From an uncultured delta proteobacterium (GTDB taxonomy: Bacteria > Myxococcota_A > Polyangia > Polyangiales > Polyangiaceae): a stretch of 62,607 nt of DNA. The notes beneath the pieces are model-generated. The model worked only from the letters and a program-made list of their open reading frames with translations, was not told the DNA's origin and did no database searches. The position numbers and the translations under genes were made by a program. Positions 18,138 through 22,889 of the stretch are shown here, one piece after another. The stretch lies in contig CAIVJW010000256.1 of the NCBI GenBank assembly GCA_903906315.1, positions 1 through 62,607 on the forward strand. The letters run 5' to 3'. The first letter of the stretch is position 1. The number at the start of each line of letters is the position of its first letter.

Positions 18138-18623
18138 ATGCAGTTCGCCCCCCTCGCCCTGCTCCCGCGGTCGGCCCTCACGATCCTCAAGGAGGCGGCG
18201 CGCCACCTCCTGAAGCGCCCGGTCGTCGGGATCCTCGCCGCCGCGCGCACGGACGACGGCCGCTGGCTGCTCATCCGCCGCTCGGACACCGGAGCCTGGG
18301 CGATGCCGGGTGGGACGCTCGAGTGGGGCGAGACGCTCGCGAGCTGCCTCGAGCGCGAGCTCCTCGAGGAGGCGGGCACGACCTCGACGACGTTCGAGCG
18401 CGTGGTCGGCGTGTACTCCCACCCGGACCGCGACCCGCGCTTTCACGCCGTGACGATCGTCGTGCGGGCGCGCGTCGCGCCCCCGACGCGCCCACCCTCG
18501 AACCCGCTCGAGATCCTCGAGGCGCGGCTCTTCGGCGACGACGAGCTGCCCGCCGAGCTCTCCCACGGCACGACCGAGATGCTGGCGCGGGCCCGCGCCG
18601 AAGCCCCGACGCACTTCGAGTGA
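18138..18623 (+). CDS. Nudix hydrolase
   Basis: A 161-residue protein with a complete Nudix box, GGTLEWGETLASCLERELLE followed by EAGT, which fits GX5EX7REUXEEXGU. Nudix enzymes hydrolyse nucleoside diphosphates linked to another group; the substrate here cannot be read from sequence. The N-terminal ~30 residues are a basic, hydrophobic extension that is unlikely to be a signal peptide. ligA starts 8 bases after the stop, so the pair is probably one transcript, which may hint at nucleotide or NAD metabolism linked to repair. Confidence 0.9.
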   Translation: MQFAPLALLPRSALTILKEAARHLLKRPVVGILAAARTDDGRWLLIRRSDTGAWAMPGGTLEWGETLASCLERELLEEAGTTSTTFERVVGVYSHPDRDPRFHAVTIVVRARVAPPTRPPSNPLEILEARLFGDDELPAELSHGTTEMLARARAEAPTHFE

Positions 18624-18631
18624 GCGCGACC

Positions 18632-20641
18632 ATGATCGACGATCCGACTCCGCACGCGAGCGCCGCCCCCCTCGGCGGGCTCGACCTGGACCCCGCGGGG
18701 CGCGAGCGCGCCGACGCCCTCGCCGCACGCCTCGATCGACACCGCGCGAGCTACTACGCCGGCACCCCGGAGATCTCCGACGCGGCCTACGACGCGCTGG
18801 AGGACGAGCTCCGCACGGTCGACCCGACGCACCCCGTGCTCAGCCGCGTCGGGTCGGCACCCGCAGTGAGCGAATGGGAGAAGGCGCGCCACGAGATCCC
18901 GATGGGCTCGCTCAACAAGGTCGTGAGCGAGGAGGAGCTCAAGGGATGGGTCGATCGCTGCGAGGAGCTGCTCGCGAAGGACGGGCACGCGCCCGTTCGC
19001 GACGCGCTCTTCGTGGCCGAGAAGCTCGACGGCTTGTCGCTGGAGATCATCTACCGCGACGGCGCGCTCGCCGAGGCGATCACGCGCGGCGACGGCGACG
19101 TCGGCGAGCGCATCACGGCGAACGTCGTCCGCATGCGGGGCGTCCCGCGGCGCATCAAGGAGCGGCGACCGATCTCCGTGCGCGGCGAGATCATCCTGCG
19201 GCGGTCGACGCTGGAGAGCGAGCCCTTCTTCGCCGAGTACGCGACGACCCGCAACGGCGCGGCCGGCGTGTCGCGGCGCTTCGACGGGCGCGGCGCCGAG
19301 CACCTGACCGTCCTCTTCTACGACGTCGCCGATCACCTCGATTTCGCCACCGAACAGGCCAAATTCGAGTGGCTCCGCGGCCTCGGTCTCGCGACCCCGC
19401 GCACGGCCTCGGGCTCGCTCGCCGACGTCATCGCGCTCTACCGCCGCTACCAGGAGGAGACGCGCGGCTCGCTCGACTACGAGATCGACGGGCTCGTCAT
19501 CTCGATCGACTCACTCGCCGCCCAGGCGCTCCTCGGCGAGCTCAACCGGAGGCCTCGCGGCGCGACGGCGTTGAAGTTCGCCTCGCCCGCCAAGGTCACG
19601 CGCGTGGTGTCGATCGACTGGGACACCGGACCGAGCGGCCGCGTCACGCCGGTCGCCACGGTCGAGCCGGTCGAGCTCGTCGGCGCGGTGGTGCAGCGCG
19701 CGTCGCTGCACAACGCGGCCAACGTGCGAGCGCTCGGCCTCGGCGTCGGTGACGAGGTCCTCGTCTCGCGCCGCAACGACGTCATCCCGTACGTCGAGGA
19801 GGTCGTCGAGAAGCGCGGCGCGGAGGCGAAGCCGCCGACGGAGTGCCCCCGCTGCGCGCAGCCGATCGTCGTCGAGGGCGAGTACCTGCTCTGCCGCAAC
19901 GCCGAGTGCCCCGCGATCGTCGAGGGCCGAATTCACAACTGGATCGGGGCGATAGGCGCGCTCGAATGGGGCGACAAGCTCGTCGCGCAGGTCGTCAGGG
20001 CGGGCCTCGTGCGCGAGCCGGTCGACCTCTATCGCCTGACGGTCGCGGACATCGCGAAGCTCGAGCGGCGCGGCGAGAAGATCGCGACCAAGTGCCTCGA
20101 AGAGCTGCGCGCGCGCCTGCCGGTCACCCTGCCCGTCTTCCTCGCCGGGCTCGGCATCGAGGGCTTCTCGACGCAGACCGCGCGCCTGCTCTTCGCCGCC
20201 GGCTACACGGAGCTCGAAAAGCTCCAGGCCGCGACGGAGCCCGAGATCGCCGCGGTCCCGGGCCTCGGCGACATCAAGGCGCGCACCATCGTGAAGGGCC
20301 TCGCCGCCCGCCGCGAGGAGGTCGCGCGCCTCCTCGCGGGCGGCATCCTCCCCGTCACACCCGAGCAGGCAGGTCCGCTCGCCGGCGTCACGTTCTGCTT
20401 CACAGGCGCCGCGGAGCGCCCGCGCGCCGAGCTCGTGCGCCTCGTCGAAGGCGCCGGGGGCCGCGTGCTCTCGTCGGTGACGAAGGAGCTCAAGTACCTC
20501 GTCATCGCCGACGTCGAGAGCAGCTCGAGCAAGGCCGCGAAGGCGCGCAAGCTCGGCACGGTGCTCATCACCGAGGGCGACCTCGTCGCGATGGCGAGCG
20601 GCGCCCCGCCCCCCGCGCGGCCGGCCCCGCCCGGTCCCTGA
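18632..20641 (+). CDS. ligA: NAD-dependent DNA ligase LigA
   Basis: The replicative DNA ligase, sealing nicks between Okazaki fragments and in repair (669 residues, normal length). The N-terminal Ia domain (YYAGTPEISDAAYDALEDEL) is followed by the adenylation domain with the AMP-accepting lysine K131 in EKLDG. After the OB fold comes the four-cysteine zinc finger (CPRC and CRNAEC, about residues 408-429). The helix-hairpin-helix region includes AAVPGLGDIKARTI, and a C-terminal BRCT domain begins near GVTFCFTGAAERPRAEL. It ends in a short Ala/Pro tail. The start ATG follows the Nudix stop closely. A gene for tandem PARP-type zinc fingers lies about 0.5 kb downstream. Confidence 0.97.
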   Translation: MIDDPTPHASAAPLGGLDLDPAGRERADALAARLDRHRASYYAGTPEISDAAYDALEDELRTVDPTHPVLSRVGSAPAVSEWEKARHEIPMGSLNKVVSEEELKGWVDRCEELLAKDGHAPVRDALFVAEKLDGLSLEIIYRDGALAEAITRGDGDVGERITANVVRMRGVPRRIKERRPISVRGEIILRRSTLESEPFFAEYATTRNGAAGVSRRFDGRGAEHLTVLFYDVADHLDFATEQAKFEWLRGLGLATPRTASGSLADVIALYRRYQEETRGSLDYEIDGLVISIDSLAAQALLGELNRRPRGATALKFASPAKVTRVVSIDWDTGPSGRVTPVATVEPVELVGAVVQRASLHNAANVRALGLGVGDEVLVSRRNDVIPYVEEVVEKRGAEAKPPTECPRCAQPIVVEGEYLLCRNAECPAIVEGRIHNWIGAIGALEWGDKLVAQVVRAGLVREPVDLYRLTVADIAKLERRGEKIATKCLEELRARLPVTLPVFLAGLGIEGFSTQTARLLFAAGYTELEKLQAATEPEIAAVPGLGDIKARTIVKGLAARREEVARLLAGGILPVTPEQAGPLAGVTFCFTGAAERPRAELVRLVEGAGGRVLSSVTKELKYLVIADVESSSSKAAKARKLGTVLITEGDLVAMASGAPPPARPAPPGP

Positions 20642-20696
20642 CCGCGCGCGCCTCGTGCGTGGTGCGGCCCAGCGCCCTCTGCTAAACCGCCGCACC

Positions 20697-21125
20697 ATGC
20701 CCCGTCGCGCCCTCCCCCGCCCGCTCGCGCTCGCCCTGACGCTGTCGTTCGCGGTGCCGATCGCCGCGTGCGGCGCTCCCGTGAAAAACACGCCGCTCGC
20801 CGAGTTCCCCACGCTTCCGACGCTCTCCGACGTGATGGACAACGCCGCGACCAGCGCCGACCCTCAGTTCAAGAAGATCGGCCAGGCCGCGTTCACCGAC
20901 GCCGAGCTCGCCTCGTTCGCGGCGACGGCCGAACGGGTCGCGGCGGCCGCCGTCAAGGCGAGGGACTTCTCGAAGGGCGCCGAGTTCGACGCGCTCGCCG
21001 GCCGCCTCGAGGCGAAGGCCAAGGCGCTCGGCGCGGCCGCGGGGTCGAAGGACGCGATCGGCGCGGTCACGGCCCTCAGGGAGATGAAGTCGGTGTGCAA
21101 GGAGTGCCACTCGAAGTTCAAGTGA
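20697..21125 (+). CDS. Cytochrome c-type lipoprotein (C-terminal CXXCH)
   Basis: A 142-residue exported protein. It has a basic start, a hydrophobic core and a lipobox-like IAAC, so it is probably lipid-anchored. The mature part is helical and Ala-rich and ends with a single heme c motif, CKECH at 134-138, four residues from the C-terminus. A C-terminal CXXCH after a four-helix-like body is the layout of the cytochrome c' family, which binds small gases or electrons in the periplasm. The ATG at 20697 is used because it starts the signal peptide. It follows ligA at 55 bases but no functional link is evident. Confidence 0.75.
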   Translation: MPRRALPRPLALALTLSFAVPIAACGAPVKNTPLAEFPTLPTLSDVMDNAATSADPQFKKIGQAAFTDAELASFAATAERVAAAAVKARDFSKGAEFDALAGRLEAKAKALGAAAGSKDAIGAVTALREMKSVCKECHSKFK

Positions 21126-21169
21126 CGCGGGGGCTTTTCGTGCGGGCCCGGCTCGGCTAGCCGATCGGG

Positions 21170-21706
21170 ATGGCGCACACGATCGAGACCGCCAGGTCCG
21201 GCCGAGCCACCTGTCGCACCTGCCGCCAGGCAATCGCCAAGGGCGACCTCCGCTTCGGCGAGGAGACGGCGAACGCGTTCGATGACAAGGGCGGGACGAT
21301 GCGCCTCTGGCATCACCTCGCCTGCGCGGCGAAGAAGAAGCCGACCCAGCTCGCCGAGGCGCTGGCGACGTTCGACGGCGAGGTCCCCGGCCGCGACGAG
21401 ATCGAGCGCACGATCGCCTCCGAGGCGCCGAAGCAGAAGCCGACGAGCTTCCCCTACGCCGAGCGCGCGCCGACGGCGCGGTCCCGCTGCGGCGAGTGCC
21501 AGGCCGCGATCGAGAAGGGCGAGCTGCGCGTGGCGACTCCGCGCGAGGCGGACCCGGGCGGCCTCGCGAACGTCAGCGCGCGGTACCTGCACGCGCGGTG
21601 CGCGAAGGGGGCGGCGGGCGGCGAGGACGCGCTGGAGGCGCTGAGGAGGAACAGCAAGGGGCTCGAGGCGGAGGAGTGGGAGGAGCTGGCGCGCGTGCTC
21701 GGCTGA
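21170..21706 (+). CDS. Tandem PARP-type zinc-finger protein
   Basis: A 178-residue protein built from two zinc fingers of the type found in poly(ADP-ribose) polymerase and DNA ligase III. Finger 1 has C15, C18, H49 and C52; finger 2 has C107, C110, H141 and C144. Both fit CX2CX30HX2C, and the text around finger 1 (ARSGRATCRTCRQAIAKGDL) closely resembles PARP1. There is no PARP catalytic domain, ligase domain or export signal. In eukaryotes such fingers recognise DNA breaks, so a DNA-nick-binding role is a fair guess but unproven here. It lies downstream of ligA and the cytochrome lipoprotein on the same strand, 44 bases after the latter. Confidence 0.8.
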   Translation: MAHTIETARSGRATCRTCRQAIAKGDLRFGEETANAFDDKGGTMRLWHHLACAAKKKPTQLAEALATFDGEVPGRDEIERTIASEAPKQKPTSFPYAERAPTARSRCGECQAAIEKGELRVATPREADPGGLANVSARYLHARCAKGAAGGEDALEALRRNSKGLEAEEWEELARVLG

Positions 21707-21803
21707 CGGATCCCGCTCGCAGACGCCGCCGGCCGCACCGCACGGTGCGCGCGGGAATGGCCGCACGTCGCTCGGGCGCGCGCACGCCGCGAGCGGGCGG
21801 CGC

Positions 21804-22802
21804 TCACCACAGCACGTCCTGCTCCTCGGTGACCCCGAGCGCCGCATCGAGGACGAGCGGCGCCCGCCCTGGCAGCGTGATCGTCCCGCGGTAGGTCCCC
21901 GCCACCTGGAGGAAACGCGACCTCACCAGGCCGAGGTTCTTCTCCTCGGCGTGCACGCCGCCCGGCTCGAACGCGAGGTCCACCGCGCCGCAGCGCGTGT
22001 GGACGCGCCACAGGTCCATCGGCCGGGCGGCGTCGAACTCGAAGCGCCCCTCGCCGACCGGCACGAGATCGTCATCGACCCACACCGCGCACTCGGCCTC
22101 GCCGACGAACCCCTCGACCAGGTTGATCGCGACCTTCTCGCCCGAGCGCGCGCGCCCCAAGAGGAAGGCCCACTTCCACGCCGTGTGCCGCGCGAGGAAG
22201 CCGTGCGTGTAGTCGATGCCCGCGAGCCCGCCGTCGAGCCGGAACGTGCGCCCATCGAGGATCGCGGTGCCCGTCACGGGCAGGAGCGCCCGCTTCTGCG
22301 TCGTGTTCACGCAGCCCCCCGGCAGCTTCGCGATGACCGCGACCGGAGGCGGCGCGCCGAGCGTGTCGAGCCGCGCGCGCACCTCGATCCCCTTCGCGCG
22401 CAGGTCCACGTCGTACGCGGACGACCCCACGGGCCGCTCGACGCAGAGCCGCGTCCCGCCGAGCGCGAACCGCGCGAGCGCGCCCTCCTCGGCGTCGTCC
22501 GAGACGCGCACCGCGAACGGCGGCCCGAGCGCGCTGCGGTCGATGACCATCCCGCGCCCCTTCTCGAACGCGAACGCGAAGGCGTTGGCCACGTAGCCGA
22601 GGTCAACGATGGCGACGCCGATCAGCAGCTCATCGGTCGCGATCGCGAGGTACGTCCACTTCTTGTGGTGCGCGAGCCGGAAGAGAGGGCTCTCCCCGGG
22701 GCCGAGGTCGACCCGCGGCAAAGGCCCGCGAAACGCGCCCTCCTCGAGCGCTCCGGTCGAGGTGGACAGCACGGACGCAGGCGGCGCGGCGAGGATGCGC
22801 AT
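21804..22802 (-). CDS. DUF2804-like protein
   Basis: A 332-residue protein without signal peptide or obvious membrane segments. It resembles the DUF2804 family, with motifs such as LGPGESPLFRLAHHKKWTYLAIAT, cut here to LFRLAHHKKWTYLAI, and a central GIDYTHGFLARHTAWKWAF. The family is beta-rich and of unknown biochemical function; some members resemble lipid or carotenoid-derivative binding folds, but that is uncertain. The ATG at 22802 is preferred; another in-frame ATG lies 45 bases upstream. It is divergent from the P5C dehydrogenase gene, with 87 bases between starts. Confidence 0.7.
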   Translation of the reverse strand: MRILAAPPASVLSTSTGALEEGAFRGPLPRVDLGPGESPLFRLAHHKKWTYLAIATDELLIGVAIVDLGYVANAFAFAFEKGRGMVIDRSALGPPFAVRVSDDAEEGALARFALGGTRLCVERPVGSSAYDVDLRAKGIEVRARLDTLGAPPPVAVIAKLPGGCVNTTQKRALLPVTGTAILDGRTFRLDGGLAGIDYTHGFLARHTAWKWAFLLGRARSGEKVAINLVEGFVGEAECAVWVDDDLVPVGEGRFEFDAARPMDLWRVHTRCGAVDLAFEPGGVHAEEKNLGLVRSRFLQVAGTYRGTITLPGRAPLVLDAALGVTEEQDVLW

Positions 22803-22889
22803 GGCTTGCGCAGGATAACCGCAACGAACCTGCGGAGTCTCTCGCACTCGCCATGGACGCCGCCATTCGGGGGACTACCATCCGGCGCC

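Follow-up and report, generated by a model that had tools for sequence, protein, structure and literature searches.

The tandem PARP-type zinc finger (zf-PARP) is usually found in eukaryotes, attached to an enzyme. The best-matching pair of this type is F1F2 of human PARP1 (PDB 2n8a, 4av1, 9mi8), and the bacterial protein described here resembles it in the tandem arrangement of two fingers, in the fold, and in the contact arginines, a lysine and the aromatic residue of finger 1. The window protein differs from PARP1 in that it lacks the third finger and the BRCT, WGR and ADP-ribosyl transferase domains, while it has an acidic tail and has lost the K141/K142 patch. As reported for F2 of PARP1, mutations (mostly to isoleucine) at K119, S120, R122, R138 and W157 strongly cut the binding of single-strand breaks, a K134 mutation causes a smaller loss, and the K141/K142 double mutation abolishes binding (PMC3094755). 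In the NMR work, Arg18 of F1 and Arg122 of F2 are described in the minor groove, and Phe44 as stacking on a base at the break; the footprint given for F1F2 extends about 7 bp to either side of the break (PMC4678113). The N-terminal finger of DNA ligase III (LigIII; PDB 1uw0) is also alike, because finger 1, taken as a single stretch, scores highest with it (39.9 bits) and because, by eye, the two have an N-x-F...GG-x-M loop in common. The window fingers, however, are not joined to a ligase, and the ligase encoded next to them is a bacterial NAD-dependent enzyme of another family.

PARP1 modules have been described in bacteria. According to a 2014 survey, bacterial PARPs consist of a WGR and a PARP domain, in some cases with a regulatory domain, or of a PARP domain alone, and their patchy distribution is thought to result from horizontal gain (PMC4245714). 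The proteins described here are likewise PARP1 modules with a patchy occurrence in bacteria, but they are fingers without an enzyme, and the PARP catalytic domain (PF00644) is matched in only 3 of the 30 finger-bearing genomes. WGR, another PARP1 module, is reported on LRR or DUF4132 proteins, and some proteins of the WGR-LRR or WGR-DUF4132 type are reported in DNA-damage regulons (PMC11674859, PMC8533742). Those proteins are alike in placing a PARP1 module on an LRR or DUF4132 protein and differ in that the module is WGR there and zf-PARP here. A search of titles and abstracts in the open-licence PMC literature returned no paper on free-standing bacterial PARP-type fingers; such proteins may have been published outside that literature. 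Petrucco is said to have worked on PARP-like finger families. The zf-PARP domain itself is not new, being readily recognised by Pfam; what appears to be new is the use of a known sensor module without its enzyme.

The finger gene, its product and the predicted fold

The gene lies in a 62,607-nucleotide contig of an uncultured delta proteobacterium, the whole of which is here called the window. The features that matter here are:

18572..20641, + strand: NAD-dependent DNA ligase LigA, the only LigA found in the host genome; as a neighbour it is not conserved
20655..21125, + strand: cytochrome c'-like gene (PF01322, E 3.3e-8), between ligA and the finger gene
21170..21706, + strand: finger-pair gene, 178 aa, ATG to TGA, two zf-PARP fingers
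21185..21409, + strand: zf-PARP finger 1, from a profile search of the genome; predicted zinc ligands C15, C18, H49 and C52
21461..21619, + strand: zf-PARP finger 2, from a profile search of the genome; predicted zinc ligands C107, C110, H141 and C144
21614..21703, + strand: acidic two-helix C-terminal tail, residues 149-178, with 8 D/E and 4 K/R
21804..22847, - strand: DUF2804 gene (Pfam), downstream of the finger gene

A preliminary description, made from the letters and from a list of open reading frames, had proposed two PARP-type zinc fingers, with a search for PF00645 and a structure prediction as ways to check them. The two fingers are confirmed far beyond chance, and membership of the zf-PARP family is established: the 178-aa protein matches PF00645 in two stretches with E 3e-24 and 86 bits, against a cut-off of 39.3, and in a phmmer search of PDB sequences it hits PARP1 in two stretches (E 1e-10) as well as the finger of DNA ligase III (E 3.5e-9). 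Scored alone against PF00645 in the genome search, finger 1 reaches 56.5 bits, above the cut-off, and finger 2 reaches 32.1 bits, below 39.3. There are 30 residues between the second Cys and the His in each finger, and the pattern CX2CX30HX2C is therefore exact in both, as had been claimed. It had also been claimed that no PARP or ligase catalytic domain is attached; in the Pfam scan of the protein no family besides zf-PARP passes its cut-off and PF00644 is absent, so that the lack of an attached enzyme is likewise established. The codon-position GC of the gene (0.69/0.56/0.97) has the pattern of real genes in this genome, and the protein is the only one with a PF00645 match found in the host genome (8.79 Mb, 98.55% complete). 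No sigma-70 promoter was found in a scan of positions 20400-21900.

Structure prediction with AlphaFold2 and an 18-row family alignment gave a model with a mean pLDDT of 91.8 and a pTM of 0.74. From the single sequence the pLDDT was 57.6, and the confidence of the good model thus derives from the family alignment. In the AlphaFold model the tail forms helices at residues 153-161 and 167-177. The predicted fold is established as that of a PARP finger: the top Foldseek match is PARP1 F1F2 bound to a single-strand break (2n8a, E 5.2e-12), followed by the N-terminal domains of PARP1 on nicked DNA (9mi8, E 1.6e-11), and all 28 matches with E of 0.001 or below are PARP1 or LigIII fingers. With VIA-align, single fingers reach Z scores of up to 10.8, and the F1F2 pair gives Z 9.7 over 153 aligned residues at 7.2 A rmsd; the individual fingers of the model match well, but the relative placement of the two does not. 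A resemblance to the type IV CRISPR protein Csf1 (NCBIfam E 0.0023 with 17.6 bits, where the cut-off is 140; Foldseek match to 7xg1, E 0.78) was rejected and is taken as common zinc-finger geometry.

Residues predicted to contact broken DNA

The fingers had been said to lie in a PARP1-like context, and this is borne out by the retention of residues equivalent to DNA contacts of PARP1. The F2 contacts correspond in finger 1 to R9 (K119), S10 (S120), R12 (R122), K24 (K134), R28 (R138) and W47 (W157), and in finger 2 to R104 (R122), K116 (K134), R120 (R138) and Y139 (W157). Aligned by eye, F37 of finger 1 occupies the position of Phe44 in F1 of PARP1, where LigIII also has Phe, and it is invariant across the 18 aligned rows. 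Among the 183 distinct bacterial fingers collected from 107 loci, the position of Arg138 is R in all 183 and that of Arg122 in 180. The invariance of the contact arginines is established, and in this set both are as fixed as the zinc ligands, which are kept at 183/183 (C1), 178/183 (C2), 175/177 (H) and 176/177 (C3). These 183 fingers come from a search with a profile whose training fingers had been picked by the Cys-Cys-His-Cys pattern, so that the conservation of the ligands is partly built in; the contact arginines are not in the selection pattern, yet any column that is conserved among the training rows is favoured by such a search. After the two arginines, the best column other than the ligands is the core isoleucine I22 (169/183), followed by the position of Lys134 (161/183). 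The position of W157 was followed in 36 distinct two-finger proteins, a set of 40 rows in which 4 identical ones were merged and none was dropped, and to which single-finger proteins do not belong; it is W in 35 of the 36 first fingers and Y or F in 31 of the 36 second fingers.

Strand-break binding is a plausible function for the protein, and the one best supported. We think it rather probable that it is a stand-alone strand-break-binding protein that acts like PARP1 F1F2 minus the enzyme. Each finger would bind zinc and hold the DNA that flanks a nick, gap or end on one side. R12 in finger 1 and R104 in finger 2 would reach into the minor groove, while R28 and R120 would sit on the DNA-binding face; F37, the loop aromatic of finger 1, would lie against the exposed base, and a preference for nicked DNA would be expected. 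Without a catalytic part, the bound break would possibly be occupied, protected or marked, or else handed on by way of the acidic helical tail.

Other features of the same set of 36 proteins depart from PARP1. At the positions of K141 and K142, finger 1 has E in 25/36 and E in 20/36, respectively, and finger 2 has V or L in 29/36 and E in 22/36; the position of K119 is P in 26 of the 36 second fingers. The family is acidic, with a median pI of 5.98 and 29 of the 36 proteins below 7; the pI of the window protein is 7.63. The acidic pI and the lost K141/K142 patch argue for a weaker or altered binding of DNA, and binding may be more selective or dependent on a partner, or it may simply be weaker. 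The same two features could be expected if a PARP-type finger had been reused as an adaptor that binds protein or RNA, with the loss of break sensing. Related fingers are moreover fused to repeat scaffolds, namely LRR (L057), ankyrin (L065, L210 and L211) and HEAT or DUF4132 (L061, L064 and L066), which would also suit an adaptor. However, an adaptor would not be expected to keep both contact arginines as fixed as zinc ligands, and we regard this alternative as unlikely, if deserving of some weight.

If strand-break binding by a PARP1-like pair is indeed the function, a bacterial family with the fingers and the two DNA-gripping arginines but no enzyme would be a ready-made minimal break sensor, and would reveal what the recognition of a break does without ADP-ribosylation. 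The family bears, moreover, on the origin of the sensor of PARP1, and its small finger proteins are candidates to be tested or used as strand-break probes.

Some relatives have lost zinc ligands. The two-finger protein of locus L056 (1076-1630, - strand) lacks C2, H and the last C in finger 1, and by eye the ligands of its finger 2 are likewise lost; the contact arginines are kept in both fingers. The genome that carries it (G206) is among the three in which fingers occur together with a match to the PARP catalytic domain. Three relatives from Planctomycetota, L130, L134 (in the second finger) and L143 (in the last finger), have one finger without zinc ligands, in which Cys is changed to Ser or Thr and the His and the last Cys are also changed; the arginine/lysine pattern is kept, as judged by eye.

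Distribution and architectures of the finger family

PF00645 is matched in 30 of the 377 genomes of the phylum of the window, 27 of them over the cut-off. A protein search of its taxonomic family finds relatives in 41/108 genomes, a count that includes the window's own genome and a few weak or partial matches. Of 343 Planctomycetota genomes, 18 also have PF00645 matches, 14 of them above the cut-off (two of the 18, G377 and G378, were already known carriers), and in the Cyanobacteriota group one of 244 genomes has a match, namely the carrier used as the centre of the search. A scan of named genomes gave 19 loci, which include Planctomycetota (best identity 55%), Melainabacteria or Cyanobacteria, Archangiaceae, Myxococcus, Polyangiaceae and Labilithrix. 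The finger family thus spans at least three phyla; the protein is bacterial, as the preliminary description had it, but it is not unique.

Run on 107 loci, the finger profile detects 194 finger domains, spread over 107 ORFs. In 78 of the ORFs two fingers lie near each other and the tail is shorter than 110 residues; 22 have either one finger or a long region at the C-terminus, and contig ends cut a few of these 22. In the three DUF4132 proteins named above (L061, L064 and L066) the zf-PARP finger is at the C-terminus, and L066 also has HEAT repeats. The finger fusions to repeat scaffolds, together with the occurrence of WGR on LRR and DUF4132 proteins, fit a general use of PARP1 modules as damage sensors. 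The host genome of the window itself encodes a WGR-LRR protein (L145). A swap of WGR for the finger on DUF4132 proteins was considered and is unsupported, as none of the 7 other DUF4132 proteins of G149 and G333 carries WGR.

Three further architectures were observed. In L054 (8270-9685, - strand), L059 (9675-11144, + strand) and L060 (9946-11379, + strand) a single finger is followed by about 400 conserved residues without a Pfam match, and the whole proteins are 43-47% identical to one another. A Planctomycetota family (L136, L137, L138, L139, L140, L142 and L143) combines a zf-PARP finger at the C-terminus with several pairs of Cys; an N-terminal RWNPYIDL motif was seen in four full sequences of this family. 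L125 and L129, both from the Planctomycetota genome G429, have by eye a similar-looking N-terminal region and one C-terminal finger, with no Pfam match in L125.

In a tree of 73 two-finger proteins (190 columns) the window protein groups with one Myxococcota record and three Planctomycetota rows, with an SH-aLRT support of 92 for the set of five and of 81 for the pair that contains the window protein. It falls outside the main group of its own taxonomic family, and the group labels need 8 changes on the tree against a minimum of 3. The gene tree suggests horizontal transfer of the finger gene, and such transfer is likely but unproven because the tree is a quick one of 190 columns. The family is scattered and probably mobile. 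It is possible, although we advance this only tentatively, that it represents a mobile, enzyme-free break-sensing module of the PARP1 type in large-genome bacteria (Myxococcota, Planctomycetota and a few Melainabacteria), used alone or on HEAT/DUF4132, LRR and ankyrin scaffolds.

A patchy distribution with apparent horizontal movement, and fusions to repeat proteins, would also fit a role of the fingers in defence or conflict, as sensors of the DNA damage that invaders inflict. The L065 fusion even matches a PADLOC candidate, PDC-M72A (E 2.2e-26), but over its ankyrin part and not over the fingers, and the window protein has no PADLOC match. Neither tblastn of phage and plasmid collections nor viral contigs gave a match, and no neighbour is conserved, all of which makes a role in defence improbable. 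The same searches led us to reject a phage or plasmid origin of the gene.

Gene neighbourhood and possible partners

The absence of a conserved neighbour is established for the loci surveyed. No conserved operon partner was detected among the called neighbours, from which the crude gene caller missed genes in loci of lower GC, and no conserved neighbour among the 4262 ORFs that lie 6 kb or less from the finger gene across 72 loci; in neither survey is a repair gene a conserved neighbour, which weighs against the break-binding reading. Neighbours in common are limited to close clades, such as a gene upstream of the fingers in L041, L080 and L084 that by eye is ABC-F-like, or belong to common families that by eye resemble kinases or sigma-54 activators.

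A PARP enzyme acting in trans was considered as a partner and rejected. The search of the host genome with PF00644 gave no match, and no control matched in that search either. The same model matches 11/377 genomes of the phylum; it was found together with fingers in G206, G254 and G366 and was not found in the other 27 of the 30 finger-bearing genomes, which indicates that serving a PARP is not the usual role of stand-alone fingers. The overlap expected by chance is about 0.9 (30 x 11 / 377) against 3 observed, so that there may be a slight excess of co-occurrence.

The gene had been placed just downstream of the ligase gene, with the suggestion that its product is a nick sensor working with LigA. 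The ligase is indeed encoded upstream (18572-20641), but the cytochrome c'-like gene (20655-21125) intervenes. This gene, which has an alternative ATG start at 20697 with a lipoprotein-like signal (by eye), was not found beside ligA in four relatives and is context, outside the finger family. LigA was not found in any of the 106 other finger loci scanned (35 + 19 + 32 + 20), which usually extend 6-10 kb to either side (less where contigs are short) and of which at least 5 are second copies of the same contig. All 13 finger-bearing genomes that were searched have LigA, but on another contig or far away; the distance from the fingers is about 673 kb in G971, a single-contig genome, 500 kb in G102, and over 3 Mb in G150, G539 and G1010. 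Around the closest relatives of this LigA, in G971 and G1010, the orthologous block NUDIX-ligA-DUF2804 is conserved and the finger gene is absent from it: in G971 about 65 bases, and no finger gene, separate the aligned stretch of ligA from that of DUF2804, and in G1010 the two are separated by other DNA of about 2.2 kb. Therefore the cytochrome c'-like and finger genes of the window occupy a gap in an older block, and the adjacency to ligA is a coincidence of one genome. Thus, although ligA, the cytochrome c'-like gene and the finger gene follow one another at short distances on the same strand, and although finger 1 as a single stretch scores best against the finger of a DNA ligase (LigIII, 39.9 bits), a sensor that recruits or helps LigA is very improbable, given that the intervening gene encodes a cytochrome and not a repair protein and given the 106 loci, the 13 genomes and the two blocks just described, and the partnership is rejected on gene context. 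A survey of co-occurrence with ligA had been proposed, with a random genomic context in relatives as the result that would speak against the idea; as regards the ligase, the linkage is not conserved and the context in relatives is of that kind.

The LigA of the window belongs to a subgroup, with 54-68% identity to LigA of G971, G1010, G345 and G1000 and 35-39% identity to most LigA of the other genomes. G1000 has three LigA-like genes.
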